Source: Rhodobacter sp. SGA-6-6
GTDB taxonomy: Bacteria; Pseudomonadota; Alphaproteobacteria; Rhodobacterales; Rhodobacteraceae
DNA length: 64,000 nt
Assembly (NCBI RefSeq): GCF_011043545.1
Contig: NZ_JAAKGP010000004.1
Location: 124,001 to 188,000 of the forward strand
Direction of reading: 5' to 3'
Shown: positions 12,596 through 47,219 of the stretch, piece by piece
Numbering within the stretch: the stretch's first letter is position 1
Layout: the number at the start of each line of letters is the position of its first letter
Notes under the pieces: generated by a model
What the model saw: only the letters and a program-made list of their open reading frames with translations
Told to the model about the DNA's origin: nothing
Database searches by the model: none
Program-made: the position numbers and the translations under genes

Positions 12596-14638
12596 TTAGA
12601 ACGTCTTCGACAGGAACAGGTTGACCGACCGTTCGGCGCCCGGCATCTGGTCGTAGGGCTTGTAGCTGCGGTCGGTGATGTTGTTCAGCTCCACCGTCAG
12701 CGCCAGGTCCTCCGAGAAATTGACATCGGCCCGCAGGTTCAGCGTGCCGTAGCCGCCCACCTTGTCCTTCAGATCGGTCAGGGCGGGGCCTTCGCGCAGG
12801 GCCGCGCCGCTTTCGGCGCGCATGAACAGGTCCAAGGTGCCCGAAAGCCCGCCTGCCTCCCAGTCCTTGCGAAGGCCGATCCGGCCAGACAGCCGGGGCG
12901 TGCCGCTGTCGGAGGTGGTGTAACCGCTGGCGTATTGCAATTCGCGCCGCATCACCGCCCCGGTGACATAGGGCGTCAGTCCCCAATCCTCGATGTAATG
13001 TTCGGCAACCAGTTCCAGCCCCCAGGTGCGGGCGGTATCCACGTTCTGATAGGTCTTGAGGGTAGGGGTGCCGATCTTGGCGATGTAGTCCTTTGCATCG
13101 GAGTAGAACAGCGTCGCGTCGATCAGCGTGCCGCTGCGGTCCAGCCGCGCGCCCAGCTCGAAGGTGGTCGAGCGTTCGGGACGCAGGTCGGGGTTGGGAA
13201 GGATATTTGCGCTGTCGGCATAGCTTTCCAGGAAAAGCTGCGAAAGCGTCGGGTAGATATAGCCCTGCGAGATATTGGCCCGGAAGGCCAGGTCCTCGGA
13301 GGGCATCCAGACCAGCCCGGCCGAGAACAGCGCCCTGCTGTCCGCGTTGGACTGTAACGGGTTGGCCGCCCCGTTGGTGGTGGAGGCCAGCAGATCGGCC
13401 TCGACCCCATACCAGCGGCCGCCCAGGGTCAGCGTCAGATCGTGGCCGAGGTCGATCTCGTGCTGCGCGAAGGCCGAGAGGGTGACGATCTTCGCCTCGT
13501 CATGGCGGTTCTCGGGCACCGCGCTCATCGGCTTCAGGGTGAACTTGTCGGCGGTCAGCCGGTCGTCCTCGTATTCCAGGCCGAGCACCGTGCGGCTTGC
13601 CGCGGAAAGCCGCATCTCGGCGCGCAGGTTGGCGCCGAAGGTCAGCTGCCGGTCGTCGGAATCCGAGACCAGCCGCATCAGCGGCAGCGGCCCCAGCGTC
13701 GCCCGCGTCTCGAACAGCCGGTCCGTGGTCTGGCGGTAGAGGTCGAAGCTCAGCCGCTCCAGCCAGGGCGCCAGGTCGGTGCCCTCGTAGAAGACAGAGG
13801 TCTTGTTCAACTCGCGCTTGGGCAGGCTGATGGTGAAGTCGGGGTTGGGGTCGTAGGTGCCGGTCGCGGGATCGAATTCCTCGACATAGACATTGCCCGC
13901 CACATCGTAGCGCTGCGCCCGCAGCCCGAAGTAATGGTCGCCCAGCCGATAGCCCAGATGCGCCGAGACGCTGCTGTCGCGGGTGTCCGAGGGCACCAGC
14001 CGCCCTTCGGGCGTGCGGCGGTCGCCCTGGTCCATCCGCCCGGCGCTGAGCCGGTAGTCCAGCACCCCCGCCCCCGCCTCGAAGCTGCCCGAGGCGGTGG
14101 CCGACAGCCGGTAGCCGTCGGTGGCCGACAGCCAGCCGGCGGTGGTGGCCAGCGCGAAGGGCTGCTCGGCGCCCTTCCTGGTGACGATGTTGATCACCCC
14201 GCCGATGGCCCGGCTGCCCGAGACCACCGAGGAGGACCCGCGCACCACTTCGATCCGCTCGATGGTGGTGGGGTCGACCAGCACCGGCTGGCCATAGTCG
14301 GTGTGGTCGGTCAGCTTCTGCCCGTCCACCAGGATGGCGACCCGGCGCGAGTTTTCGCCGCGGATGACGATCCGCTCGATCCCCTCCTCGCTGATCTGCA
14401 GCCCTGGCACGTCGCGCAGCAGCGTGGCGATGGAGACCGGGGCCTTCTGCTTCAGGCTGTCGCCCTCGATCACCGTGATCGAGGCTGGGTTGGTCAGCAC
14501 CTCGGTCGGCAGGCCGGTGCCGAGCAGCGTGATGGTGCCGAGGTCGACATACGCCGTCTCGGCCAGGGCGGGGAAGGCGGAGGAAAGCGCGGTGCCGACC
14601 AGCAACGCGCGGAGAAGGGAAGTGCCGGAGGGGGCCAT
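12596..14638 (-). CDS. TonB-dependent outer-membrane receptor (possibly haem)
   Basis: A 680-residue protein with a cleavable signal ending near ALA-ET (residue 25) and a plug domain containing IRGENSRRVAILVDGQ and the region RGSSSVVSGSRAIGGVINI. A 22-strand-type barrel follows, ending in Phe (VNLFLSKTF). The start at 14638 puts the signal peptide at the N-terminus; the longer frame is not leader-like. The adjacent upstream gene encodes an ABM-domain monooxygenase that could degrade haem, so a haem or haem-protein ligand is plausible but not shown. An NNR/FNR-type palindrome sits 105 bases upstream, hinting at induction during anaerobic or NO growth. Confidence 0.85.
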   Translation of the reverse strand: MAPSGTSLLRALLVGTALSSAFPALAETAYVDLGTITLLGTGLPTEVLTNPASITVIEGDSLKQKAPVSIATLLRDVPGLQISEEGIERIVIRGENSRRVAILVDGQKLTDHTDYGQPVLVDPTTIERIEVVRGSSSVVSGSRAIGGVINIVTRKGAEQPFALATTAGWLSATDGYRLSATASGSFEAGAGVLDYRLSAGRMDQGDRRTPEGRLVPSDTRDSSVSAHLGYRLGDHYFGLRAQRYDVAGNVYVEEFDPATGTYDPNPDFTISLPKRELNKTSVFYEGTDLAPWLERLSFDLYRQTTDRLFETRATLGPLPLMRLVSDSDDRQLTFGANLRAEMRLSAASRTVLGLEYEDDRLTADKFTLKPMSAVPENRHDEAKIVTLSAFAQHEIDLGHDLTLTLGGRWYGVEADLLASTTNGAANPLQSNADSRALFSAGLVWMPSEDLAFRANISQGYIYPTLSQLFLESYADSANILPNPDLRPERSTTFELGARLDRSGTLIDATLFYSDAKDYIAKIGTPTLKTYQNVDTARTWGLELVAEHYIEDWGLTPYVTGAVMRRELQYASGYTTSDSGTPRLSGRIGLRKDWEAGGLSGTLDLFMRAESGAALREGPALTDLKDKVGGYGTLNLRADVNFSEDLALTVELNNITDRSYKPYDQMPGAERSVNLFLSKTF

Positions 14639-14742
14639 GTCATGGGTCCTTCCAGCCGACGGAATCGAAAGCTGCGTTGCCCGGCAGAGGGCTGGATGCG
14701 CGGGACGCAGGGACCGCGTAGCCCGGCCCTGCGGGCGCGTAA

Positions 14743-14756
14743 TTGACAAAGGTCAA
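14743..14756 (-). promoter_or_regulatory. Candidate FNR/NNR box upstream of TonB receptor 1
   Basis: TTGAC-AAAG-GTCAA is a perfect 5+5 palindrome centred 111 bases upstream of the receptor ATG. With the usual -41.5 placement, transcription would start near 14708, leaving a ~70-base leader. Confidence 0.6.
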
Positions 14757-14868
14757 TGGGTGGGAAATCCGGCCGGGAAGCTGCCCGCCCCACGGCCGTT
14801 GCGCAGCCCGGCGCTTCATTCCCCGGTGCAGCGGAGGATCATCCGGCGCGATTATGCCGCCAGGAAGC

Positions 14869-14893
14869 AGGCCCGGCGCGGCAGGCCGGGCCT
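14869..14893 (-). terminator. Stem-loop downstream of the ABM monooxygenase gene
   Basis: AGGCCCGGC / GCCGGGCCT form a 9-bp stem with a 7-base loop, beginning 14 bases after the stop of the gene at 14907 on the minus strand. The T-tract is poor, so this may be a weak terminator or an mRNA-stabilising hairpin. Confidence 0.45.
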
Positions 14894-14906
14894 TCCGGCC
14901 GGCATC

Positions 14907-15236
14907 TCAGGCCGCGCTGGCCTTGGGCAGGACGTGCTGGATCACCTCGAAGCCCTCGAACTTCTGCGCGCCCTCGTGCAGCTTGCGGGTCTCGCCGGCG
15001 CGGGCATGGGCGGCGCGGAACTGCTCGGACCGGGTCCAGTTGCGGAAATCCTCCTCGCTGGCCCAGACGGTATGCGAGGAATAGAGCCGCAGGCCGTTCT
15101 CCTCCGGCCCCTTCAGCATGTGGAATTCGACGAAGCCCGGCAGGGTGTTCAACTGGCTGTCGCGGCCGAGCCAGAGCGCCTCGAAGTCCTTCTCGTTCTC
15201 GGCGGCGACGGTGAAGCGGTTCATGGCGATATACAT
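14907..15236 (-). CDS. ABM-fold monooxygenase, HmoA/IsdG-like (possible haem-degrading enzyme)
   Basis: A 109-residue protein starting MYIAMNRFTVAAENEKDFE, with FVEFHMLKGPEENGLRLYSSHTVW in the middle, the pattern of antibiotic-biosynthesis-monooxygenase (ABM) proteins of the HmoA/IsdG haem-oxygenase group. These small dimers open the haem ring to release iron. The start at 15236 gives the conserved family N-terminus. It lies upstream of and on the same strand as a TonB receptor, which supports a haem-iron acquisition pair. The catalytic Asn/His/Trp set cannot be assigned by eye, so a quinol-type monooxygenase remains possible. Confidence 0.7.
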   Translation of the reverse strand: MYIAMNRFTVAAENEKDFEALWLGRDSQLNTLPGFVEFHMLKGPEENGLRLYSSHTVWASEEDFRNWTRSEQFRAAHARAGETRKLHEGAQKFEGFEVIQHVLPKASAA

Positions 15237-25562: not shown

Positions 25563-26276
25563 ATGCGTCCGGACGATCTGGCGGAAGTCCGCCACCTGCC
25601 GCTGTTCCGCGACATGCTGAAGGCGAACTTCGATGCGCTGATGCAGGGCGCCTATGCCCAAGCCTTCCCCGAGGGACTGGAGCTGATCCGTCAGGGCGAT
25701 CCGGCGGATTTCCTGCATGTGGTGCTGGAGGGCGCGGTGGAGCTTCACGCCGGCTGGCAGGACCGCAGCTGCACCATGGCGGTGGTGAAGCCGGTCGGCA
25801 CCTTCATTCTGGCCGCCTGCATCAAGGACGTGCCCTACTTGATGTCGGCCCGCACGCTGGAACGGTCGCGGCTTCTGCTCGTGCCGGCCTCGGACCTGCG
25901 GGCGGTGTTCCGTCGCGACGCGGAATTCGCCGTCTCCACCATCACCGAGCTGGCGGGCTGCTACCGCGCCGTCGTTCGCCACGCCAAGAGCCTGAAGCTG
26001 CGCAACTCGCGCGAGCGGGTGGCGGCCTACATGCTGAAGCAATCGCAGCTGGCGGGCGGCGCGCTGCGGTTCACGCTGGGGATCGAGAAGCGGCTGATCG
26101 CCTCCTACCTCGGCATGACGCCCGAGAACCTGTCGCGGGCGCTGAAGACGCTGGACGATGTGGGGATCGAGGTTCATGGCCAGATGGTCACCATCACCGA
26201 CATGGACCGGCTGCTGGCCTTCGTGCCGCCCGATGCGCTGATCGACGGCCCGGACGCGCCGGGACTGGTGGCCTAA
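25563..26276 (+). CDS. Crp/Fnr-family regulator of NNR/Dnr type
   Basis: A 237-residue regulator with cyclic-nucleotide-like sensor domain (about 12-130), dimer helix and C-terminal winged helix. The recognition helix MTPENLSRALKTL holds E188, S191 and R192, the residues that read the TTGA half-site in FNR proteins. There is no N-terminal cysteine cluster, so it is not an oxygen-sensing FNR; NO-sensing NNR/Dnr proteins lack it too. It lies between nosC and the nir genes behind an FNR box, fitting an FNR-to-NNR cascade. The 3' end overlaps the convergent small gene by four bases. Confidence 0.88.
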   Translation: MRPDDLAEVRHLPLFRDMLKANFDALMQGAYAQAFPEGLELIRQGDPADFLHVVLEGAVELHAGWQDRSCTMAVVKPVGTFILAACIKDVPYLMSARTLERSRLLLVPASDLRAVFRRDAEFAVSTITELAGCYRAVVRHAKSLKLRNSRERVAAYMLKQSQLAGGALRFTLGIEKRLIASYLGMTPENLSRALKTLDDVGIEVHGQMVTITDMDRLLAFVPPDALIDGPDAPGLVA

Positions 26277-27573: not shown

Positions 27574-30793
<3,220 letters not shown>

Positions 30794-36370: not shown

Positions 36371-37054
36371 ATGGCATGGATCGAACTCGCACTGGCCATG
36401 GCGCTGTTCCTGGCCTCCCACCGCATTCCCGCGGCGCTCGGGGTCAAGGGGCGGCTTCTGGCCGCGCTCGGCCCGCGCGGATATGGGCTGCTGTTCTCGG
36501 TGGCCTCGGTGCTGCTGTTGTGGTGGCTGATCTCCGCCGCCGGGCGGGCGCCGTTCATTCCGCTCTGGGACCAGCAGCCCTGGCACCGCTGGGCGGCGAA
36601 CATCGTGATGCCGCTGGCCATCGCGCTGGCGGTCTTCGGCGTGGCCGCCCCCAACCCCTTCGCCTTCGAGGGCCGCCGCATTGGCTTCGACCCAACCCGC
36701 CCCGGTATCGCCGGGCTGACCCGCCAGCCGCTCCTGTGGTCGCTGGCGCTGTGGTCCGGCGTGCATCTCTTGCCGAACGGCGACCTCGCCCATGTGCTGC
36801 TGTTCGGCCCCTTCCTGATCCTGGCATTGACCGGGATGCCGATGGTCGAACGCCGCCGCCGGCGCGAGATCGGCGCGGCGGAGTGGAGCCGCCTGACCGC
36901 CCATACCGGCCTGATCCCCTTCGCCGCCCTGCTGGGCGGCCGCTGGCGCCCCCGCGGCCTGCCGCCGCTGGCAAGAGCGGCGGTCCTGCTGCTGACATGG
37001 GCCGCCGTCTGGCACCTGCACGAGCCGTTGATCGGCCTCTGGCCGGGCGTCTAG
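36371..37054 (+). CDS. nnrU: NnrU-family membrane protein
   Basis: A 227-residue protein with about five to six helices. GLTRQPLLWSLALWSGVHLLPNGDLAHVLLF is the conserved NnrU core, and the N-terminus (LALFLASHRIP-like) also fits. NnrU is found with nor and nir genes in Rhodobacter and is required for NO metabolism, with no defined biochemical role. Its stop overlaps, on the opposite strand, the stop of the TonB receptor by four bases, leaving no room for a terminator. Confidence 0.88.
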   Translation: MAWIELALAMALFLASHRIPAALGVKGRLLAALGPRGYGLLFSVASVLLLWWLISAAGRAPFIPLWDQQPWHRWAANIVMPLAIALAVFGVAAPNPFAFEGRRIGFDPTRPGIAGLTRQPLLWSLALWSGVHLLPNGDLAHVLLFGPFLILALTGMPMVERRRRREIGAAEWSRLTAHTGLIPFAALLGGRWRPRGLPPLARAAVLLLTWAAVWHLHEPLIGLWPGV

Positions 37055-39216
37055 AACGCCAGCTTTGCCCCCAGGTAGAAGGCCCGTCCCTCGCCCGGGA
37101 TGAAGGCCGCCTGCGTGGGTGAGGCCTGGTCCACCACCAGCGTCGAGGAGGCATAGCGTTCGTCGAGGAGGTTCGTCACCTCGGCCACGATCACCGCATT
37201 CTCGCCCACCGACCAGGACGCCCCCAAGTCCACCAGCGTGTAGGGCTGGTTGAACACCGTGTTCATGTTGTCCACCGGCGTCTTGCCCGGCACCCAATGC
37301 ACCGTGCCCGACAGAGCCAGCTTTTCGGTCGCCTGCCAGTCCAGCGCCAGCGTCAGCACATGCTCGGGCGCGCCCGCCAGCCGGTTGTCGCCGCGCAGCG
37401 GGTCGTTGTCGAAGCGGAAGTCCTGCCAGGTCCAGGCCACCCGCGCCTCCAGCGTATCGCTCAGCGCGGCCCCCAGCCCCAGCTCCAGCCCACTGTGCAC
37501 GGTGCGGTCGGCGTTGACCGAGGCCAGCGCCGCCCCGCTGGTATCGCGCAGCGACAGCAGTTCGTTCTTCAGCCGCGAATGATAGGCGGTCACGTCCCAG
37601 CTCAGCGCCCCCGCCTCGCCGCGCCATCCGGCCTCCAGCGTCACCGCGGTTTGCGCCTTCAGATCGGGCGTGGCGAACATCGCCCCCGCCGGGCCGGAGT
37701 TCGGCGTGCCGCCCACGGTGCCGATCAGGTCGTCATGGGTCGGCGGCTCGAAGCTTTTCGCCAGCGAGACCCAGGCGAATTGCCCCTCGGCCGGTTTCCA
37801 CGACAGCGCCAGCGAGGGCGCGAAGCCGGAATAGTCGCGGTCGTAACTGGTGGACACCGCCGGCGCGGTGCCGGGGGTCGGACCGCCCGGCCCGAAGGCG
37901 ATGGTCGGCCGGGTCGCGCCGGTCCAGAGGTCGGTGTTCCTGCGGCTGGCATGGATGAAGGCCAGCGCCGGCGACAGGGTGAAACCGCCGATCTCGACAT
38001 TGCCGCCGGCATGGATCGACAGGGTTTCCGATTTCAGCTTGTTGCTGCCGAAGGCCGCGCCGCGGGTGCCGCCGATGTTGTGGAAATAGTCCCGGTCGGC
38101 CTCGCCCAGCGACCAGCTGAAGCCCGCCTCGAACAGCGGCAGGTCGCCGGCGCCCGGGATGGTGTAGCGGGCGGTCAGGGTGCCGTCGGTCCCCTCGGTA
38201 TCGCGGAAGCCGGCAGAGACCGGGAAGGCGAAGCTGTCGTCGGTCCGCCCGACCGACAGGCCCACGTCGAACAGCCCGCCCGCGCCTTCCCATGTGGTGC
38301 GCAGGCCGGCCAGCGTCTGCACAGTCTCGCGGTGCGGCTTGTCGCGGACGACGTTCGGCCCGGGGTTGGTCGGCACGCCGCCCACCATCACCGGCCCGCG
38401 ATGGACCTGGGTCGGATCATCCTGCAAGGCGGCCCAGGTCAGAGGCCCGGCCACGTCAAAGGAGAGGTCGGTATGGGTGAAGAACAGCCGCGTGGTGGCC
38501 TCGCCCATGGCGAAGGTGACGTTGCCGCCGACCACGGTGCGGTCCGAACTGTTGTAATCGCGGAAGCCGTCGCTTTCGGAATGCTCCAGATGGAACCAGC
38601 TGTCCGCCGTCTCGCCGTCGATCCCGTAGCTCAGCGCGAGGTCGCGACGGCCGAAGCTCCCCGCCCCCAAGGCCCCGCGCCAGCCGGGCTGCGAGGCGCC
38701 GGAGGGCGAGGTGAAGTTCAGCGCCCCGCCCATCACCGCCGCGCCCAGCCGGTTGGCCGCCGCGCCGCGGAACACCTCGATGGTTTCCGCCCCGCCCGGG
38801 CTGGCGATGCCCACCACATAGGCCCCGTCGGCGCGGTTGACCGGCATCCCGTCGATCATCACCAGCAGCCCGCGCTCCGCCGGGTTCTGCTGCTGGCCCG
38901 AGCCTCGGATCTGGATGCGCGGCTGGTCGTTGCCGCCGAAGAACTCCTGCAAGACGATCCCCGGGTTCAGCCGCAGCGCATCGGTCAGCCGCGGCGCCAC
39001 CTCGGTATCCTTCGCCGCGCTGCGGTCGATCAGCGTCACCCCGCCCGGGGTGACGCCGAAGCGCAGCTTCACCGGGTTGTCGGCCTCCAGCCAGATCGTG
39101 CCGAGGTCGATGGTGGCGCCGGGAGAGACCGATTGCGCCAGCACCGGCGCGGCGGACAGCACGGTCCCGGCCAGCAGCATGGCAAGGGCGGGACGGGAGA
39201 GGCGGGAAGCGGGCAT
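37051..39216 (-). CDS. TonB-dependent outer-membrane receptor (substrate unknown; copper or iron chelate)
   Basis: A 721-residue receptor with signal peptide (ending VLA-QS at about 28), plug domain (IQIRGSGQQQNPAERGLLV, IDGMPVNRADG), and barrel ending LGAKLAF. It looks like the FecA-type group with an atypical long early plug. It sits between nnrU and a regulator gene within the denitrification island and has its own NNR/FNR box 105 bases upstream. NosZ and NirS need copper and haem iron, so uptake of a metal for denitrification is a reasonable guess; no ligand motif proves it. Start at 39216 is set by the signal peptide. Confidence 0.85.
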   Translation of the reverse strand: MPASRLSRPALAMLLAGTVLSAAPVLAQSVSPGATIDLGTIWLEADNPVKLRFGVTPGGVTLIDRSAAKDTEVAPRLTDALRLNPGIVLQEFFGGNDQPRIQIRGSGQQQNPAERGLLVMIDGMPVNRADGAYVVGIASPGGAETIEVFRGAAANRLGAAVMGGALNFTSPSGASQPGWRGALGAGSFGRRDLALSYGIDGETADSWFHLEHSESDGFRDYNSSDRTVVGGNVTFAMGEATTRLFFTHTDLSFDVAGPLTWAALQDDPTQVHRGPVMVGGVPTNPGPNVVRDKPHRETVQTLAGLRTTWEGAGGLFDVGLSVGRTDDSFAFPVSAGFRDTEGTDGTLTARYTIPGAGDLPLFEAGFSWSLGEADRDYFHNIGGTRGAAFGSNKLKSETLSIHAGGNVEIGGFTLSPALAFIHASRRNTDLWTGATRPTIAFGPGGPTPGTAPAVSTSYDRDYSGFAPSLALSWKPAEGQFAWVSLAKSFEPPTHDDLIGTVGGTPNSGPAGAMFATPDLKAQTAVTLEAGWRGEAGALSWDVTAYHSRLKNELLSLRDTSGAALASVNADRTVHSGLELGLGAALSDTLEARVAWTWQDFRFDNDPLRGDNRLAGAPEHVLTLALDWQATEKLALSGTVHWVPGKTPVDNMNTVFNQPYTLVDLGASWSVGENAVIVAEVTNLLDERYASSTLVVDQASPTQAAFIPGEGRAFYLGAKLAF

Positions 39217-39313
39217 GGGCCAGGTCCTTTCGCAGGAAGCAGCGTCCGGTTCCTGGCGAAAGGCTGGGTGAAGGACATCGGCACAGCGGTGCGCCATGCC
39301 GCCCGCGAAGGGT

Positions 39314-39327
39314 TTGACCAAAGTCAA
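39314..39327 (-). promoter_or_regulatory. Candidate NNR/FNR box upstream of TonB receptor 2
   Basis: TTGAC-CAAA-GTCAA, a perfect 5+5 palindrome centred 104 bases upstream of the receptor ATG. Its spacing to the ATG is nearly the same as at TonB receptor 1 (111 bases). Confidence 0.65.
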
Positions 39328-39373
39328 ATGATGACAAAAAGACTCTGGAATCGGGGCCGTGCCGCCACGCGGT

Positions 39374-39934
39374 TCAGTCGTGGAAGGCCGCCGCCAGGTC
39401 CTCGGGCAGGTCGAACTCGGCCAGCACCCGGGCGCGGGCTTCGGCCGACATCTTGCGGGCAGTCTTCTCGACGATGCCGGGGATTTCCTCCTGCGGCCGG
39501 GTGGCGGCGAAGGGCGCGAAATACCAGCGCAGGAAGGTGAAGCAGATCACGTCCTCCAGCGCCTGCACCTCGGCATCGCGCTTGATCCCCTCTTTCCGCA
39601 GCAGCACGCCGACGCGGGCGCAGTCCTCCGGGCCGAACCCCGCCTCGGCCATGATCCCGGCCACCCGCTCGGCATGGCGCCGCCCCTGCTCGCGCCGCCA
39701 GGCCAGATAGCCCGGCTTGCCTTCCGGCCAGGCGCTGCGCGGCAGCAGCCAGCGCTCGACATGCTGCCCCCGCGCCGCGATCCGCAGGACGGCGGAGGCC
39801 TCGGGGAACAGCCGCTCCAGCTCCGCCGTCATCCGCTGGCCGTAGAGCAGCGCGGCGGGCACGCCCTCTTCCAGCGTCGGGTCGGCGGCATTGGCGGCGT
39901 CGATCAGCGCAATCGCCTGGGTCAGATCGGCCAT
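39374..39934 (-). CDS. DUF4202-family protein
   Basis: A 186-residue cytoplasmic protein starting MADLTQAIALIDAANAADP. It contains RGQHVERWLLPRSAWPEGKPGY and CFTFLRWYFAPFA, the most recognisable DUF4202 signatures. The His/Glu/Asp residues in RGQHVERW and in ALEDVICFTFLRW recall an HD-type arrangement, but no activity is established. The gene follows the Crp/Fnr regulator by 9 bases and is the last gene of that operon. Confidence 0.75.
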   Translation of the reverse strand: MADLTQAIALIDAANAADPTLEEGVPAALLYGQRMTAELERLFPEASAVLRIAARGQHVERWLLPRSAWPEGKPGYLAWRREQGRRHAERVAGIMAEAGFGPEDCARVGVLLRKEGIKRDAEVQALEDVICFTFLRWYFAPFAATRPQEEIPGIVEKTARKMSAEARARVLAEFDLPEDLAAAFHD

Positions 39935-39943
39935 CCCCGCCCC

Positions 39944-40642
39944 CTACCGTGCCCAGGCCAGCGCCGGGTCTTCCTCGACATAGGTCCGCAGCACCGCCAC
40001 GTCGTCGATCTGCGCCAGGTTCTGCCGGATCGTCACGCCCTGCTCCTTCAGCCGGGCGAAGGCGCGGCTCAGGCTTTCGGGCTTCATCCCCAGCCGCCCG
40101 GCGATCAGCACCTTGTCGTAGGGCAGCGTCACCTCGCAGGCCCCGGCCTCGCAATCGGCCAGTTCCAGCAGGAATTCCGCCACCCGCTGCGCCCCGGTCT
40201 GCGCTTTCAGCGCCTCGATCTGGCCGACGAGGGCGTGCAGATGGGCGAAGGTAGCCGACAGGATCGAGATCGCCACCTCCGGGTTGTCGCGGATCTGGCG
40301 CAGGAAGCTGTCGGCCTCGATGCGGATCAGGGTGCAGTCGGTCACCGCCTCGGCCGCCACCGGATAGGTGTCGTCGCGGAAGGCCACCGCCTCGCCGAAG
40401 GAGGCGCCCTTGGTGAAGGCGCCCACCACCGCCTCGGTGCCGTTCGGGGCGATGCGATACAGCTTCACCCAGCCCTCGGCGACGATGTAGATCGCCCGGG
40501 CCCGCTCGCCCTGCAGGAAGATCGTCGCGCCGCGGTCGAAATGGCGCACATGCGCCTCGGCCAGCACGGCGCGGGCGACCGGCTCGGGGGCGGAGGCAAG
40601 CAGCAGCGAGGCTCTGGCAAGAGCGATGAGTTCGGGCTTCAT
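39944..40642 (-). CDS. Crp/Fnr-family regulator of Dnr/NnrR type (second copy)
   Basis: A 232-residue regulator with a cyclic-nucleotide-like domain (15-130) and a winged helix ending in LGMKPESLSRAFARL. E189, S192 and R193 are the FNR-type half-site contacts. It lacks the FNR cysteine cluster. It differs clearly from the regulator at 25563 and resembles Pseudomonas Dnr and Rhodobacter NnrR more closely. It probably senses NO and binds the TTGAC-type boxes. It is part of the run ABC importer-nnrS2-regulator-DUF4202, so it would be auto-regulated through the box at 44626. Confidence 0.87.
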   Translation of the reverse strand: MKPELIALARASLLLASAPEPVARAVLAEAHVRHFDRGATIFLQGERARAIYIVAEGWVKLYRIAPNGTEAVVGAFTKGASFGEAVAFRDDTYPVAAEAVTDCTLIRIEADSFLRQIRDNPEVAISILSATFAHLHALVGQIEALKAQTGAQRVAEFLLELADCEAGACEVTLPYDKVLIAGRLGMKPESLSRAFARLKEQGVTIRQNLAQIDDVAVLRTYVEEDPALAWAR

Positions 40643-40715
40643 CGGCGGCGTTCCTGTCAGACGGGGCGCGGCGACCCTAGCGGTTGTGCGCGGAAAACGC
40701 CACCCTCGGCCTGCC

Positions 40716-41966
40716 CTAGCAGCCCTCGTGATTGCCCAGGGTCTCCGGGTCGGACAGGATCGGACAGTAGGCCCGCAGCCACAGCCCGAAGGCCAGCGCC
40801 CAGAGCGCCGCCGAGGCGATGTGCAGCGCCTGCGCCTCGCCGCCGGCGATCTCCGGCCAGATCCGGCAGGCGGTGGCCGCCAGCAGCGCCGCCATCGCCG
40901 CCTTCACCGGCCGGCCGAAGGGCAGCGAATGCCCGGCATGGAACAGGCCGGCGATGGACAGCACGGCCAGCGTCGCCAGCCCGAGGCCCCCCATCAGCGC
41001 CAGATGCCAGCCCCCGGCCTCGGCCAGGGGCGCGCCGATTCGCGCCGCGCCCAGCCAGATCAGCCCGGCCCCGGCCATCCCTGCGGGCAGCGACAGCGCC
41101 AGGATCTCCGCCCGCAGCGCGGCGCGGCCGATGAAGCCCTCGGCCATGCGGTCGATGAAGCCCGCCCCCGCCGCCAGCAGGAGCCAGCCGCCCACGGCCG
41201 GGCTGGCGCCCATGGCCTGCGCCACCACCGCCAGCGCCACCAGCCCGGGGGCAAGGTTCAGCCGCCCGGGATGCGGCCGGAACGGCGAGGTCTGCTCGCT
41301 GGGGTCGAGGACGAGGTTGGTCACCGCCACCGCGATCCGCGCCAGCGCCAGACCGAGGAGGCCCAGGAACACCAGCCCGCCGAGCCGCATCATCTCCCCC
41401 GCCTCGAAGGCATCGCCGCGGATCATGTGCCAGCGCGCCACCGCCTCGGTCGCGCCGAACGCGGCCAGCCAGCACAGGAAGGCCAGCAGGTTGTCGGTCC
41501 GCTTCTGCCAGCTGATCCGCGCGCCGTAGAGCACCAGCCCGGCGATCCAGCCCAGATCGGCCAGCGCGGCGACCGGCGTCAGCAGGTCGAGGCCGAACAG
41601 CCCGATCACCCGCGCAACGCCCCACAGCCCGGCCAGCAGCCACAGCGCCCGGCCCTGCAGCTTCGGCGTGTCGGTCCATTCCGGGAAGGCGCTGGTCAGG
41701 AAGCCGATCAGCGCGGCGCCGAAGCTGCCCCAGATCATCTCGTGCATGTGCCAGACGCCGGGGGTCATCGCGGTCGTCCCCACCAGCCGGTAGCCCTGCA
41801 CCGCGACCCAGAGGAAGGGCCAGAGCGCGGCATGGAGAGCCGCCAGCGGGAAGAACAGCCGAAAGCCCTCGTCCGAGATCACCGCAGCCAGCCCGGGCCG
41901 CGGGATCGGCAATTCGGCCGGCGGGACACAGGCAGTGCCGCGCAGGTTCGGGATCGGCGCGGTCAT
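40716..41966 (-). CDS. nnrS: NnrS-family membrane protein (paralogue 2)
   Basis: A 416-residue twelve-helix protein. VWHMHEMIWGSFGAALIGFLTSAFPEW contains the HxHE(M) motif of NnrS, and GHSLPFGRPVKA is the late conserved region; the terminal SDPETLGNHEGC is unusual. Its sequence is only distantly like the copy at 29591. It is coupled with the ABC ATPase by a four-base overlap, so it shares that operon. Two NnrS copies suggest separate conditions or substrates. Confidence 0.87.
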   Translation of the reverse strand: MTAPIPNLRGTACVPPAELPIPRPGLAAVISDEGFRLFFPLAALHAALWPFLWVAVQGYRLVGTTAMTPGVWHMHEMIWGSFGAALIGFLTSAFPEWTDTPKLQGRALWLLAGLWGVARVIGLFGLDLLTPVAALADLGWIAGLVLYGARISWQKRTDNLLAFLCWLAAFGATEAVARWHMIRGDAFEAGEMMRLGGLVFLGLLGLALARIAVAVTNLVLDPSEQTSPFRPHPGRLNLAPGLVALAVVAQAMGASPAVGGWLLLAAGAGFIDRMAEGFIGRAALRAEILALSLPAGMAGAGLIWLGAARIGAPLAEAGGWHLALMGGLGLATLAVLSIAGLFHAGHSLPFGRPVKAAMAALLAATACRIWPEIAGGEAQALHIASAALWALAFGLWLRAYCPILSDPETLGNHEGC

Positions 41967-42736
41967 GCGATCCGCCTTTCGTCCACGTCATGGATATGGC
42001 GGAACAGCGGGTCCTCGTGCTGCCAGCGCCGGGTCAGGGCGAAAACCGCCTCGTCGTCGCGGCTGCCGGGCGCGCCGGGCAGGTGCCGCACCCCCATGAT
42101 CCCCCGCCCCTCCGGGTGCAGCACCGCCACCCGGTGGGCGATCCGCGCGGCTTCCGACAGGTCGTGGGTGACGAAAAGGCCGGAGAAAGAGGCCTGCGCC
42201 ACCTGCGCGATCACCAGATCCTGCATCCGCCGCTTCAGCGCCGCATCCAGCGCGGTGAAGGGCTCGTCGAACAGGATGAAGTCGGGCGCCACCACCAGCG
42301 CGCGGGCGATGGCGACGCGCTGGCGCATCCCGCCCGACAGCTCCACCGGATATTTGCCCAGGTCGGCGGCGTCGAAATGCACCCGCGCCGCGGCGGTGCG
42401 GGCGGCGTCCCGCGCCGCGTGCCGGCCCATGCCGGCCAGCCGCGCAGCATAGGCGATGTTCGCCTCGGCCGTCGCCCAGGGCATCAGCCGCGGCTCTTGG
42501 AACACCATCGCCTGCCGGGCGAAGCGGCGGGCGATCCGCCCCGACTTCTGCTCCAGAAGCCCCGCCGCCAGATGCACCAGCGTAGACTTCCCGCAGCCCG
42601 AGGGGCCGATCAGCGCCACCACCTCGCCGGGCATCACCGCCAGCGAGATGTCGCGCAGCACGTCGCGGCCCAGGAAGGCATGGGTGACATGGGCCAGTTC
42701 AAGAACGGGGGCGAAGTCCAGCACCGGATCGGTCAT
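41963..42736 (-). CDS. ABC transporter ATP-binding protein, nitrate/sulfonate/taurine type
   Basis: A 257-residue ATPase with Walker A GPSGCGKST (about residues 43-51), signature LSGGMRQRVAIARAL and Walker B FILFDEPFTALDA, all complete. The closest subfamily by motif is NrtD/SsuB/TauB. It is coupled to the permease by four bases and followed by nnrS2 with a four-base overlap. The substrate is unknown. Confidence 0.9.
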   Translation of the reverse strand: MTDPVLDFAPVLELAHVTHAFLGRDVLRDISLAVMPGEVVALIGPSGCGKSTLVHLAAGLLEQKSGRIARRFARQAMVFQEPRLMPWATAEANIAYAARLAGMGRHAARDAARTAAARVHFDAADLGKYPVELSGGMRQRVAIARALVVAPDFILFDEPFTALDAALKRRMQDLVIAQVAQASFSGLFVTHDLSEAARIAHRVAVLHPEGRGIMGVRHLPGAPGSRDDEAVFALTRRWQHEDPLFRHIHDVDERRIA

Positions 42737-43542
42737 CGCTTCACCCCCCAGGGCCGCGCGGCCTCGCGCCAGCGTTCGGTCTCGGCCCGCAGCGGGTGCA
42801 GCACGCCGTATTCCAGCGCCACCAGCCCGGCCACGGCGATGACGATCCAGGCCAGCGCCATGGTCACGTCCATATATTGCCGCGCCCGCGCCAGTTCATT
42901 GCCGATGCCGCCGACCGAGGTCAGCACCTCGATCATCACGGCGACCTTGACCGAGGTCGCCAGCCCCAGCACCAGCGCCGGGAACAGATGCGCCAGCATC
43001 TGCCGCATCCCGACCGACCAGAACCGCCGCCAGGGTCCCGCGCCGAACGCCTGCGCCATGGCGTCGAGGCCGCGGTCGCGGCCCGCCACGCCCTCGGCAG
43101 TGCCGGCGAAGACCAGCGGGACAACGCCGACAAGGATCGTCGCCATCACCATGCCGTCGGTGGCGCCGAACCAGATCATCGCCACCACCAGCCAGGCGAT
43201 GGGGGGAACGCCCAGGATCACCGTCAGCAGCGGCCGGGCCAGCCGCATGGTGGCCGGCGAATAGCCCGCCGCCAGCCCGGCCATCCCGCCGACCGCCCCG
43301 GCCAGCACGAAGCCGCCGGCCGAACGGGCCATGGTCCGCCCGATGATCTCCCACGACGCCGGGTCGCGCAGCAGGTCCACCGCCGCCGCCAGCACCGCCA
43401 AGGGGGCGGGCAGGATGAAATCGCCCCAGGCCTGGTGCCCGGCCTGCCAGAGCGCGGCCAGCAGGCACAGTCCGGCCAGCCCCGCCCAGCCGCCCCAGAG
43501 GAAGCGGCCCGCCCGGCCCAGCCTGTGCAGGATCTGGTCCAT
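42733..43542 (-). CDS. ABC transporter permease, nitrate/sulfonate/taurine type
   Basis: A 269-residue inner-membrane protein with six helices. The EAA-like loop EGVAGRDRGLDAMAQAFGA lies near residue 165, followed by LTSVGGIGNELARARQY, typical of the SsuC/TauC class. The start at 43542 is directly after the binding-protein stop (1-base gap), and MDQILHRLGRAGR is a normal leader-less cytoplasmic start. Confidence 0.88.
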   Translation of the reverse strand: MDQILHRLGRAGRFLWGGWAGLAGLCLLAALWQAGHQAWGDFILPAPLAVLAAAVDLLRDPASWEIIGRTMARSAGGFVLAGAVGGMAGLAAGYSPATMRLARPLLTVILGVPPIAWLVVAMIWFGATDGMVMATILVGVVPLVFAGTAEGVAGRDRGLDAMAQAFGAGPWRRFWSVGMRQMLAHLFPALVLGLATSVKVAVMIEVLTSVGGIGNELARARQYMDVTMALAWIVIAVAGLVALEYGVLHPLRAETERWREAARPWGVKR

Positions 43543-43543
43543 C

Positions 43544-44533
43544 TTACAGCAGATAGAAGCCGTCGTCCGGCAGCCTGCCGCCGATGATGGCGGCATCGGC
43601 ATCGGCCACCGCGGCGAACATCGCCTCCAGCGCCGGACGGGCGGCGCGGGCCGGCGTGGCCAGCAGCGCGCAATGCGGGATCGACTTCGCCAGCACCGGC
43701 GCGGGCATCCCCAGGGCATCCGCCGCCGAGGCCGCAGCCGCCTCCGGCGCGGCCAGCACCTGCGGCACCGTGGCGGCAATCGCCGCCTGCAAGGCCGCGG
43801 CAGCCTCGGGCGCGGAGGCGATGAATGCATCGGTGACGCCAAGCCCCGCCTGCGGGATCGAGGCGCCGAGGCCGGTGATCCGGCCCCATTCCGCCTGCAG
43901 GTCGATCACCCGGTGCATCGCCCTTCCCTCCTGCGCCGCCCGCATCTCGGCCATGGCGCCCGCGGGTTCCGGCAGCACCCCGGCATCGGCGCGGCCGGTC
44001 AGCAGCAGCTGCACCGCCTCGATCGGGTTGGCGGCGGCCACCACTTCGACATCCGTCGCCGCCATCCCGGCCTCCAGCATCAGCCGCTGCATCAGGATGT
44101 CGGGCGTGTCGTTGCGGAAGGGCAGCGCCAGCCGCTTGCCCTTCAGGCCGGCGATGGTGGTCAGCGAGGCGTCGGGGCTGACCACATAGACCAGCCCGTC
44201 GGTCATCACATTCGCCAGCCGCACGCCCAGGCCGCGGGTATACAGGTTCGCCGCCGCCAGCGTCGGCAGGATCACCGCCCCCATGGTGCCGGAGGCCAGG
44301 CCCGCCCGCAGCTCGTCCGGGTCCTTCCACGGCGCGAAGGTGACTGTCCCGGCGATGCCGTCCAGCGCGCCCGAGGCCACCGCATGGGCCAGGGTGATCG
44401 AAGGCCCGGCGGGCGGGCCGTAGAGGTGCAGTTCCACCAGCATCGGCGCCGCGCGCAGAATGCCGGGCGCCGCCAGCGCCGCCCCGCCCGCCGCCGCCAG
44501 CCCGATCAGCCGCCGCCGCGAAATCCTGTCCAT
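43544..44533 (-). CDS. ABC transporter substrate-binding protein (NrtA/SsuA-like), Tat signal
   Basis: A 329-residue periplasmic protein with twin-arginine leader ISRRRLIGLAAAGG (residues 4-17). The body has two alpha/beta lobes of NMT1/SsuA type (LKGKRLALPFRNDTPDIL). GGAGAGA precedes ATG 44533. It heads a polycistronic run with permease, ATPase, nnrS2, regulator and DUF4202. The ligand is not evident; a metal chelate, nitrate-like ion, thiamine precursor or sulfonate could all fit. The upstream box and -10 make it NO/low-oxygen responsive. Confidence 0.85.
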   Translation of the reverse strand: MDRISRRRLIGLAAAGGAALAAPGILRAAPMLVELHLYGPPAGPSITLAHAVASGALDGIAGTVTFAPWKDPDELRAGLASGTMGAVILPTLAAANLYTRGLGVRLANVMTDGLVYVVSPDASLTTIAGLKGKRLALPFRNDTPDILMQRLMLEAGMAATDVEVVAAANPIEAVQLLLTGRADAGVLPEPAGAMAEMRAAQEGRAMHRVIDLQAEWGRITGLGASIPQAGLGVTDAFIASAPEAAAALQAAIAATVPQVLAAPEAAAASAADALGMPAPVLAKSIPHCALLATPARAARPALEAMFAAVADADAAIIGGRLPDDGFYLL

Positions 44534-44598
44534 ATGGTCTCTCCGTCTCTTCCCGGGGCTGGCGGCGGCTGGCCCGGGACTCATGTCCATCGGCGCGG

Positions 44599-44639
44599 AT
44601 AATACCCGAGTCAAATACTCAGGTCTTGACTTGCATCAA
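44599..44639 (-). promoter_or_regulatory. Class II NNR/FNR promoter of the ABC-nnrS2-regulator operon
   Basis: Box TTGAC-TTGC-ATCAA at 44626-44639 and -10 hexamer TATTAT at 44604-44599 fit exactly a class II layout, with the box at -41.5 and the start near 44591. This is the best-formed FNR/NNR promoter in the window. The box overlaps the last codons of the small membrane gene upstream. Confidence 0.75.
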
Positions 44640-45020
44640 GCGCAGCGGAATCCCCGCCAGCACCCCGATCCGCACCGCCAGCGCCACCGGAACGGCATAA
44701 AGCGCCAGCAGGTTCCCCAACCCCAGTTCCGCCACGGGCTGCAGCCCCCGCGCCGGGCCGAGCGTCCAATGCAGCGCAACCGCCGCCAGCAGCCCGGCCA
44801 GCCACAGCGGCGGCAGCGCCCGGCCGGGCAGGGCCAGCGAAGCCAGCAGCAGCCAGAGCCACCACCACAGCCGCGCCAGCCCGGCCAGGCCGCTGGCCGT
44901 CATCAGCAGGCTCGCCCGCAGGTCGAAGGGCCAGAGCGCGCCGCGCCATGTCGCCAGCGCCACGGCAAGGGCCAGCAGCCCGAGAATCCACAGAACCGCC
45001 CATCCGATCCGCGCCGCCAT
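44619..45020 (-). CDS. Small membrane protein, function unknown
   Basis: A 133-residue protein with four probable helices (residues 5-24, 38-62, 70-90 and 104-126) and GGAGGAAA 6 bases upstream of ATG 45020. No family is recognised. The gene is divergent from ric across a 170-base gap that contains an FNR/NNR box. Its 3' end contains the box of the ABC operon, so it may be read ahead of that operon. Confidence 0.7.
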   Translation of the reverse strand: MAARIGWAVLWILGLLALAVALATWRGALWPFDLRASLLMTASGLAGLARLWWWLWLLLASLALPGRALPPLWLAGLLAAVALHWTLGPARGLQPVAELGLGNLLALYAVPVALAVRIGVLAGIPLRLMQVKT

Positions 45021-45113
45021 GCCGTTTCCTCCGGTTTGCGCCTTGGCTACGCCGATCCCGCCCGCGGTCAAGGCCGCCCGGCCGGGGCATAGCGCCGCAT
45101 TCGGTATCTCAGA

Positions 45114-45127
45114 TTGACATTTATCAA
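45114..45127 (+). promoter_or_regulatory. Candidate NNR/FNR box upstream of ric
   Basis: TTGAC-ATTT-ATCAA centred 70 bases before the ric ATG. A -10-like TACTCG lies at the right distance. The -41.5 placement predicts a start near 45162. Confidence 0.72.
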
Positions 45128-45190
45128 GGGATGGCCGCCGCACCTGCGCTACTCGGTCAAGGCATGGACCCATGCCCGAAAGGAAGCGCC

Positions 45191-45853
45191 ATGTCCCTGT
45201 CCCTTTCCCCCGATTCCACCGTTTCCGAGATCGCCAACACCCTGCCCGGCGCCGCCGAGGTCTTCCGCCGCCACGGCATCAGCTTCTGCTGCGGCGGCAA
45301 GGCCAGCCTCGCCGAGGCGGCGGCGAATTCCGGCTTCCCGCTGGCCGACCTGACCGCCAGCCTTCAGGCGCTGGTCGACGGCGCCGCCCATGACGCGCCG
45401 CAGGAGACCGGCGCCCTGATCGACCATATTCTGACCCGCTACCACGACACCCATCGGGCCGAGCTGGAATGGCTGATCCCGCTGGCCCAGAAGGTCGAGA
45501 TGGTCCACGGCGACCGCGAAGAGGCCCCCCACGGCCTGGCCGAGGCGCTGATCGCGCTGGCCGAGGACCTGGACAGCCATATGGTGAAAGAGGAACGGGT
45601 GCTGTTCCCGATGATGAAGCAGGGCGGCAACCCGATGATCGTCCACCCGATCGCGGTGATGCGACACGAACATGACGACACCACCGCCCTCCTGCGCCGG
45701 ATCGAGCATGTCTCGCACGGGCTGACCCTGCCCGAGGGCGCCTGCGGCTCCTGGACCGCGCTTTACACTGGCGTCGCCAAGCTGACCGAGGATGTGGTCC
45801 GCCACATGCATCTGGAGAACGACATCCTGTTCCCGCGGTTCGAGGCCGCCTGA
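45191..45853 (+). CDS. ric: Iron-sulfur cluster repair di-iron protein (Ric/YtfE/ScdA/DnrN)
   Basis: A 220-residue protein. The N-terminal DUF542 part holds FRRHGISFCCGGKASLAEAA with Cys33-Cys34. The hemerythrin-like domain has His/Glu ligands in LIDHILTRYHDTHRAEL, LDSHMVKEERVLFPMM and MRHEHDD, and in HMHLENDILFPRFE. Ric mobilises iron to repair clusters damaged by NO or oxidative stress. ATG 45191 is preceded by AGGAAG. It is dnrN-like in location, within the denitrification island. Confidence 0.95.
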   Translation: MSLSLSPDSTVSEIANTLPGAAEVFRRHGISFCCGGKASLAEAAANSGFPLADLTASLQALVDGAAHDAPQETGALIDHILTRYHDTHRAELEWLIPLAQKVEMVHGDREEAPHGLAEALIALAEDLDSHMVKEERVLFPMMKQGGNPMIVHPIAVMRHEHDDTTALLRRIEHVSHGLTLPEGACGSWTALYTGVAKLTEDVVRHMHLENDILFPRFEAA

Positions 45854-46117: not shown

Positions 46118-46131
46118 TTGACTTATGTCAA
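46118..46131 (+). promoter_or_regulatory. Extended NNR/FNR palindrome upstream of the GAF-Fis gene
   Basis: TTGAC-TTAT-GTCAA extends by two further matched bases on each side to GATTGAC-TTAT-GTCAATC, the longest perfect box palindrome here. It lies 154 bases (centre) before the ATG at 46278; the predicted transcript starts near 46166. Confidence 0.65.
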
Positions 46132-46277: not shown

Positions 46278-47219
46278 ATGCCGACATCGACCACCCAGCA
46301 CAGCTCCCGGATCGAGGCCGCGATTTCCGGCGGCCTCGCGGCCCGTTCGGCGCTGGCGGCCTCCTGGGCGCGGTCGGCCCGGCTCTACCGGCTGGACCCG
46401 GCCGAACGGCAGCGCGACCACCGCATCACCGCGCAGGAACTGGCGCAGGCCCGCGACAGCCTCGGCGCGCTGCTGCCCGCCGCCGCGCCGCATCTGGACC
46501 GGCTGTTCCAGGCGGTCGGCGGCCTTGGCGCCTGCATCGTGCTGGCCGATGCCCAGGGCATCGCCGTGGACCGCCGCGGCAATCCCGGCGACGACGCCGA
46601 TTTCTCCGCCGCCGGGCTCTGGACCGGCACCGCCTGGTCCGAGGCCGAGGCCGGCACCAACGGCATCGGCACCTGCCTGGCCGAGGGCCGCGCCGTCACC
46701 ATCCACCGCGAACAGCATTTCCTGGCCCGCAACATCGGGCTCAGCTGTTCCTCGGCCCCGGTCCACGGGCCGGAGGGGCAGCTGATGGCGGTGATCGACG
46801 TCTCCACCGCCCGCGCCGACCTGCCCGATGCCGTGGCCGGGCTGATCGGCGCCACGGTGGCCGAGGTCGCCCGCAAGGTCGAGGCCGACCTGTTCCACCG
46901 GCATTTCCCCCGCGCCCGCATGGTGCTGGTGCCCGGGCTGGACCGCGGCCTCGGCGCGCTACTGGCGGTGGATGCCGACGACCTGGTGATCGGCGCCACC
47001 CGCGCCGCGCGCAGCCACCTGGGCCTGACCGGCGACCTGGCCGCCGCGCCGCGGCCGGTGGCCGACCTGCTGGGACTGGAGAGCCACGACAGCCTCGCCG
47101 AAGCCGAACGCGCGGTGCTGTCGCGGGCGCTGGCGCGATCCGGCGGCAATGTCTCGGCCGCCGCACGGGCGCTCGGCCTGTCCCGGGCGACGCTGCACCG
47201 CAAGCTGGACCGCACTTAG
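46278..47219 (+). CDS. GAF-domain/Fis-type HTH regulator lacking the AAA+ domain
   Basis: A 313-residue regulator. Residues about 60-190 form a GAF-type sensor (GGLGACIVLADAQGIAVDRRG, GTNGIGTCLAEGRAVTIHREQHF). Residues 270-313 are a Fis-type HTH (ARSGGNVSAAARALGLSRAT). It resembles AcoR-type activators of acetoin/aldehyde genes but has no AAA+ ATPase domain or GAFTGA motif, so it cannot act as a classic sigma-54 activator. The next gene, 129 bases downstream, is an aldehyde dehydrogenase, its likely target. An NNR box precedes it. Confidence 0.85.
   Translation: MPTSTTQHSSRIEAAISGGLAARSALAASWARSARLYRLDPAERQRDHRITAQELAQARDSLGALLPAAAPHLDRLFQAVGGLGACIVLADAQGIAVDRRGNPGDDADFSAAGLWTGTAWSEAEAGTNGIGTCLAEGRAVTIHREQHFLARNIGLSCSSAPVHGPEGQLMAVIDVSTARADLPDAVAGLIGATVAEVARKVEADLFHRHFPRARMVLVPGLDRGLGALLAVDADDLVIGATRAARSHLGLTGDLAAAPRPVADLLGLESHDSLAEAERAVLSRALARSGGNVSAAARALGLSRATLHRKLDRT

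Follow-up and report, generated by a model that had tools for sequence, protein, structure and literature searches.

Here we present a computational analysis of a predicted operon at positions 39374-44639 of a 64,000-nucleotide (nt) stretch of the Rhodobacter sp. SGA-6-6 genome (contig NZ_JAAKGP010000004.1, positions 124,001 to 188,000), hereafter called the window. The operon carries genes for an ATP-binding cassette (ABC) importer, the nitric oxide (NO)-associated protein NnrS, a Crp/Fnr regulator and a DUF4202 protein, and a gene for a TonB-dependent receptor lies just downstream. Analysis of the window and of related genomes revealed that the importer and nnrS recur together as a four-gene cassette, that close relatives of the receptor are confined to genomes with this cassette, and that perfect FNR/NNR-type boxes precede both the operon and the receptor gene. 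We tentatively propose, with confidence somewhat short of even, that these parts constitute an FNR/NNR-controlled uptake system in which a TonB receptor, an ABC importer and a partner NnrS would handle iron in a chelated or heme-like form.

The locus had been described earlier, from the sequence alone, as an NO-responsive operon for an importer of unknown substrate. The promoter box, the denitrification setting and the bond between transporter and NnrS withstood the analysis; nitrate or nitrite as cargo did not, and the statement that the operon holds its own regulator needs re-reading.

Results

Gene organization of the operon

All six predicted open reading frames (ORFs) lie on the minus strand between 44533 and 39374, in the order binding protein, permease, ATPase, NnrS, Crp/Fnr regulator and DUF4202. 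The main features are as follows.

44639-44626, minus strand: FNR/NNR-type box TTGATGCAAGTCAA of the operon, perfect match
44604-44599, minus strand: TATTAT, putative -10, read from the sequence
44619-45020, minus strand: small hydrophobic protein, possible further operon member (ORF and relatives)
43544-44533, minus strand: substrate-binding protein, twin-arginine translocation (Tat) type, NMT1/THI5-like clan (NMT1 PF09084, 33.7 bits)
42733-43542, minus strand: ABC permease (BPD_transp_1, 66.7 bits)
41963-42736, minus strand: ABC ATPase (ABC_tran, 99.7 bits)
40716-41966, minus strand: NnrS, second copy in the window (PF05940, 234.9 bits)
39944-40642, minus strand: Crp/Fnr regulator, NNR/DNR type (cNMP_binding, 81.9 bits; HTH_Crp_2, 48.3 bits)
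39374-39934, minus strand: DUF4202 protein (PF13875, 214.9 bits)
39314-39327, minus strand: perfect FNR/NNR-type box before the TonB receptor gene (box scan)
37051-39216, minus strand: TonB-dependent receptor just downstream of the operon (start 39216 chosen), proposed to belong to the same uptake system
45114-45127, strand not assigned: perfect box, flanked by the small ORF and the divergent ric/dnrN gene at 45191-45853 (box scan)

The ORFs and domain matches confirm the one-strand arrangement given in the original prediction, and its four closely packed genes are borne out by the junctions: a 1-nt gap and two 4-nt overlaps, followed by 73 nt to the regulator and 9 nt to DUF4202, so that the spacing is close through the first four genes and wider for the last two. 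The binding protein begins MDRISRRRLIG, a twin-arginine-type start in keeping with the Tat export that had been ascribed to it. Relatives of the small upstream ORF, 44-50% identical, stand before the binding protein gene in loci L131/L148 and L152. A consensus scan of 39200-45250 found no sigma-70-type site and no terminator, which is weak evidence for a single transcript.

The operon NnrS matches PF05940 far above the family cut-off of 28 bits, over profile positions 4-370 of 371, and shares with the family the residues W72, H73, E76, H321 and H343, which are invariant in 18 aligned NnrS sequences and are candidate ligands for heme and copper. Its genetic company is different: known nnrS genes are single or stand beside nnrR, nsrR or hmp (PMC1274295), and the present nnrS comes last in an ABC cassette. 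A cysteine in the last 20 residues is found in nine of 14 aligned cassette NnrS proteins, versus one of four other NnrS proteins, where it lies within a membrane-like stretch.

The importer and NnrS form a recurring cassette

Relatives of the binding protein at E 1e-10 were found in 17 of 390 sampled genomes of the order, a sample that includes Paracoccus-like and Maritimibacter-like genomes. NnrS stands behind the binding protein in nine of these 17, at 48-100% identity over the matched part, with one 58% partial match. The closer relatives, nine of nine, are followed by NnrS (in L163 a partial copy), and the four cassette genes recur together, which supports the genetic tie between transporter and NnrS. 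The genome counts are lower bounds because scoring was limited to the top candidates of each genome (five for the binding protein, two for the receptor); a single-protein scan of genome contigs returned only two relatives.

Annotated plasmid relatives with NnrS were found in the Alphaproteobacteria Cereibacter, Paracoccus, Shinella, Azospirillum, Agrobacterium, Martelella, Bartonella, Chelatococcus and Rhizobium and, beyond that class, in Diaphorobacter HDW4A (Betaproteobacteria) and in Arcobacter, Nitratiruptor and Sulfurimonas (Campylobacterota). Diaphorobacter HDW4B and Pseudomonas nitroreducens carry the binding protein without NnrS. In a sample of the phylum, the binding-protein family at E 1e-40 was present in 10 of 398 genomes, and NnrS lay beside it in five of nine further loci read. 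In a tree of 43 binding proteins, NnrS-linked rows fall to either side of the midpoint root, so the link between importer and NnrS is old, with losses; the labels (NnrS or none) change seven times on this tree versus 13.2 times in shuffles, and none of 500 shuffles was as low. Four rows were left out of the tree (L114, L115 and L116, which duplicate or nearly duplicate other rows, and the truncated L130), and two labels need care, L132 being scored as lacking NnrS only since its contig ends and L144 as having it from a weak 42-bit match.

NorB is found in seven of the nine cassette genomes versus 140 of 390 overall (Fisher p 0.012, or 0.027 without the window's own genome) and in three of eight genomes of the branch without NnrS. 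A Crp/Fnr (five) or Rrf2 (three) regulator lies within a few genes in eight of 16 annotated loci, a count that has no control stretches.

Three further neighbourhoods may be recorded here. In L158, L160 and L162 the binding-protein branch without NnrS adjoins large genes whose starts, in our own reading, resemble subunits of hydrogenases or dehydrogenases linked to nicotinamide adenine dinucleotide. L182, on a plasmid of Paraclostridium (Clostridia), combines a distant importer with a Crp/Fnr gene, an acyl-coenzyme A dehydratase activase, cupins, hemerythrin and hcp, and looks like an NO-response cluster. On the Diaphorobacter HDW4A plasmid (L179), the binding protein gene is separated from the permease, ATPase and NnrS genes by CobN, an ExbB-type gene and two more TonB receptors.

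A TonB-dependent receptor is linked to the cassette

The receptor gene, overlooked in the original prediction, lies on the same strand as the operon, with a perfect box of its own 98 nt upstream. At E 1e-120, four of the 390 genomes have a relative, all of them among the nine cassette genomes (p 1.3e-7, or 5.8e-6 without the window's own genome), and the distances between receptor and binding protein in these four are 1.6, 3.3, 4.3 (own) and 8.2 kb. The same link is seen in plasmid records, where 23 of 25 with a receptor match at E 1e-60 have the binding protein no more than 3.1 kb away, the two exceptions being distant (Prevotella) and partial (Azospirillum) matches. Together, receptor and cassette have the look of a full import system associated with NO and NnrS.

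By sequence profile, the nearest solved receptors are YncD and PqqU (6v81, 9c4o; E 1e-39). The likeness is distant, since the PqqU model NF041535 gave 93.3 bits against a cut-off of 1200, and the gene company of these receptors is different. The copper-receptor model TIGR01778 (NosA/OprC) was not among the 23 families that match the receptor at E 0.001.

Promoter boxes suggest NO-type control

The window holds seven perfect TTGAYNNNNRTCAA boxes, versus a mean of 0.00 over 100 shuffles: two between nosR and a second Crp/Fnr gene, and one each at a heme-type TonB receptor gene, the receptor gene at 37051-39216, the operon, ric and a gene at 46278. The operon box sits inside the last codons of the same-strand upstream ORF at 44619-45020. 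A class II promoter with its box at -41.5 had been claimed for the operon; both the box and the TATTAT are present, and the box centre falls at -40.5 if TATTAT spans -12 to -7, one base off the claimed position. The denitrification setting also holds, with nosR, nirS, nor and nnrU around an operon that carries an FNR/NNR-type box. Taken with the NNR-type regulator, the boxes point to probable control by NO or low oxygen. Among seven other NnrS-branch loci of the order, the 400 bp upstream contain a perfect box in one and a one-mismatch box in three, against a background of 0.04 per 400 bp.

Published expression data may bear on this control. In Paracoccus denitrificans, Pden_4169 was up 6.9-fold by RNA-seq and 11-fold by quantitative reverse-transcription PCR (qRT-PCR) in zinc-depleted medium, alongside norC (9-fold) and nirS (5-fold) by qRT-PCR (PMC5387054). 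By locus-tag counting, Pden_4169 would be the binding protein, because soxB is Pden_4154 (PMC9409073) and the binding protein of P. ferrooxidans lies 14 locus tags away from soxC; with soxB assumed to come next after soxC, 4154 + 15 = 4169.

The regulator and DUF4202 form a separate module

The regulator has the Crp/Fnr fold (PF00027, PF13545), the recognition helix ESLSR and cysteines only at 103, 164 and 169, and so no N-terminal cysteine cluster. An ExxSR helix without N-terminal iron-sulfur cysteines is what we take to be the mark of the NNR/DNR type.

Of 292 genomes sampled from the order, 94 have DUF4202 (one match being below cut-off), and of the 93 matches over cut-off, 80 besides the operon's own locus were read with about 20 kb of surroundings and 12 were left out. 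The regulator stands beside DUF4202 on the same strand in 20 of the 80, and nor or nir genes lie in the stretch at 16 of these 20 loci versus none of the 60 others, a Crp/Fnr neighbourhood shared with the NNR, NnrR and DNR regulators, from which the window's regulator differs in standing behind an importer cassette. In genome G273, a 51% identical regulator relative lies about 6 kb from norB. The comparative genomics suggested with the original prediction, a search for co-occurrence of DUF4202, nnrS and ABC genes, found no binding protein, permease or this NnrS in any of the 80 stretches. Because 16 of 20 pairs are near nor or nir and none of 80 stretches has the importer, regulator plus DUF4202 is an independent unit of the nor/nir neighbourhood, and the operon joins two modules, this pair and the importer with NnrS, here fused or adjacent. 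The regulator is indeed in the operon; elsewhere it pairs with DUF4202 beside nor and nir without the transporter, and is in that sense not the transporter's own.

Alternatively, the six genes may not be one functional unit at all, the pair merely adjoining an unrelated cassette and each having its own promoter. We consider this rather unlikely. The pair occurs without the cassette in the 20 DUF4202 loci and the cassette without the pair elsewhere, and the 73-nt gap separates them here; against this, all six genes lie on one strand, the scan found no box, terminator-like or sigma-70-like site in the gap, nine of the 20 other pairs have their own box (at most one mismatch, within 300 bp upstream), unlike the NnrS-regulator gap, and both modules share an NO theme.

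A one-sequence model of DUF4202 is all helical (predicted local distance difference test score, pLDDT, 66.1); Foldseek returned nothing for it at E 0.001, the HD-domain proteins 4l1j and 5dqw appearing at probabilities of 0.38 and 0.33 amid meaningless matches, and a sequence search against solved structures gave nothing below E 0.1. No open-access paper on DUF4202, alone or with denitrification, was found.

Candidate cargoes

A cofactor precursor or a metal chelate, both raised in the original prediction, fits better than nitrate or nitrite. The nearest solved structure to the binding protein, by family profile, is 3hn0 (100.8 bits), a structural-genomics entry named nitrate transport protein. 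A conserved Cys/His metal site in the binding protein was considered and rejected: in an alignment of 21 relatives, none of the 20 invariant columns is Cys, His or Met, and the cysteine of SIPHC in the window protein is not conserved among relatives. The invariant residues include W69, D73, R76, E189, P190, P227 and Q228.

Iron, siderophore or heme uptake genes lie near seven of 16 annotated loci versus none of seven equal-length control stretches (p 0.047), an enrichment that is a lead only, because the positives had already been seen when the controls were chosen; six controls are from replicons that carry positive loci, and the seventh is from that of a borderline locus. The controls include an Nramp transporter with a ferritin-like gene in one stretch, and copper and cytochrome c maturation genes in another. 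L143 and L179 were treated as borderline and not counted as positive; left out were L142 (which coincides with L179), L144 and L178 (uninformative annotation), two further Agrobacterium loci (L164 and L181) and the clostridial L182. Our guess at the cargo is iron as a chelate or in a heme-like form, then copper, then an organic cofactor; iron comes first because iron and heme genes recur nearby and because, as a review reports, NnrS keeps dinitrosyl-iron complexes low and so shields the iron pool (PMC4601167).

A copper chelate would instead supply NosZ, NnrS and other copper proteins of denitrification, with NnrS as client or chaperone. NnrS is a heme/copper protein (PMC4417242), the operon and the nos genes share one island, the TonB receptor gene nosA belongs to the NnrR regulon in Brucella (PMC1274295), and the Cereibacter cassette has nearby a P-type ATPase of the copper type (annotated as heavy-metal translocating), while that of Martelella adjoins pseudoazurin. 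We nevertheless judge copper improbable, given the missing match to TIGR01778, the absence of Cys, His and Met from the invariant positions of the binding protein, and the fact that no copper gene is common to the nap/nor-linked and the Campylobacterota copies.

Somewhat more doubtful is an organic cofactor or precursor, such as a quinone, a vitamin or an iron-free tetrapyrrole. The NMT1/THI5-like clan, to which the binding protein belongs, includes binders of cofactor precursors, the receptor's nearest solved relatives include PqqU, the pyrroloquinoline quinone transporter, and the Diaphorobacter HDW4A locus has CobN and its further TonB receptors; the distance from PqqU argues the other way, and no cofactor pathway gene recurs across the annotated loci.

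Only a slim chance is given to a bolder form of the iron proposal, in which receptor, importer and NnrS would be one machine recovering iron from nitrosyl-iron or heme-like complexes of denitrification: NnrS would strip or shield NO in the membrane, and the importer would return the freed iron complex.

Nitrate, nitrite or a sulfonate as cargo is very improbable in spite of automatic names such as nitrate/sulfonate transporter, the nap genes adjoining the Agrobacterium cassette and the description of Pden_4169 as a putative nitrate transporter (PMC5387054). The window subunits share with NrtABCD, SsuABC and TauABC the same superfamily of binding protein, permease and ATPase; they differ in falling far below the curated cut-offs of the nitrate models (NtrB 35.4 vs 209 bits, NtrCD 129.8 vs 291.8) and of the sulfonate and taurine models (SsuA 55.2 vs 163.5, SsuC 42.7 vs 347, TauC 36.1 vs 342), scores that place them outside the known nitrate, sulfonate and taurine importers, and in their ties to a TonB receptor and NnrS. 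These low scores and the receptor link make nitrate, nitrite and taurine poor candidates and led us to reject such an importer. Small anions cross porins and should not need a TonB receptor, and the substrates of Nap and Nir act in the periplasm of a respiratory denitrifier.

Other features of the window

The window is a denitrification island with nosR, nirS, norC/B, nnrU, ric/dnrN (45191-45853) and a first nnrS (29591-30793), the nos, nor and nnrU names being partly from our own reading of ORFs. The second Crp/Fnr gene (25563-26276; 316.9 bits vs an FtrB cut-off of 211) faces nosR, with two of the perfect boxes between them. The heme-type TonB receptor gene with a perfect box (14743) adjoins a gene for the heme-degrading HmuQ (14907-15236) in the region 12596-15236, beside nos genes, and a 63% identical relative of this receptor lies directly upstream of the Cereibacter cassette (L133). 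The perfect box at 46118-46131 lies about 150 nt before the DhaR-like regulator gene at 46278, which is followed by an aldehyde dehydrogenase gene.

Discussion

The proposed FNR/NNR-controlled uptake system can be pictured as follows. A compound in short supply would cross the outer membrane through the TonB receptor and be captured by the Tat-exported binding protein, and the permease and ATPase would then pump it into the cytoplasm, with NnrS as a standing partner that shields the cargo, or the cargo's target, from NO. Imported iron could then refill an iron pool tied up by NO while the cell builds the heme- and iron-rich enzymes of denitrification. The NNR-type regulator, normally with DUF4202 beside nor or nir, would here have ended up downstream of the cassette, where it may boost its own expression. 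The computation establishes the genes, the boxes, the recurring cassette and its link to the receptor; joint action of the parts, control by NO, iron as cargo and the part played by NnrS are inferred.

Several observations weigh against this proposal. The cassette is rare (nine of 390 genomes) and missing from the one same-genus genome sampled; eight genomes of the order have a binding-protein branch, 39-42% identical, without NnrS within the stretch read, NnrS is likewise absent at four of the nine loci of the phylum sample, and two cassette genomes have no NorB match. A close receptor is missing in five of the nine cassette genomes, so that those genomes must use a different receptor or do without one, and Sulfurimonas and Nitratiruptor carry a porin-like gene in its place. 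Only one of the seven other NnrS-branch loci has a perfect box and three of seven a one-mismatch box, and L163, outside that count, has none in 400 bp upstream. In zinc-chelated medium, Pden_4169 was not differential (PMC5387054). The iron control is weak, its stretches coming from replicons of positive or borderline loci chosen after the positives had been seen, and a structure model of the binding protein, built from two sequences only, failed (pLDDT 44.8) and was not used.

SftP with AtsRBC is a TonB-ABC system for the import of sulfate esters. It shares with the proposed system a TonB receptor that works with an SsuA-like ABC importer, and differs in having neither NnrS nor NO control. NnrS, TonB receptors and importers of this type are all known kinds of protein. 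The open-access literature searched held no description of NnrS, a TonB receptor and an importer as a standing combination under such control, in agreement, within open-access papers only, with the earlier remark that no such system was known; the available part of the HcpR paper names no such importer (PMC12915319).

The function of NnrS has long been unclear despite its common membership in NO regulons, and its link, conserved across classes, to a defined importer that has a dedicated receptor and binding protein makes this question one for a ligand-binding experiment. The findings also indicate that a nitrate/sulfonate transporter annotation in a denitrifier can stand for a different function. 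If receptor, importer and NnrS were indeed one machine for iron recovery, NnrS would gain its long-sought biochemical context. If the cargo is iron or copper, metal supply would be tied to NO exposure, and thus to the extent of nitrogen oxide reduction and the release of nitrous oxide.

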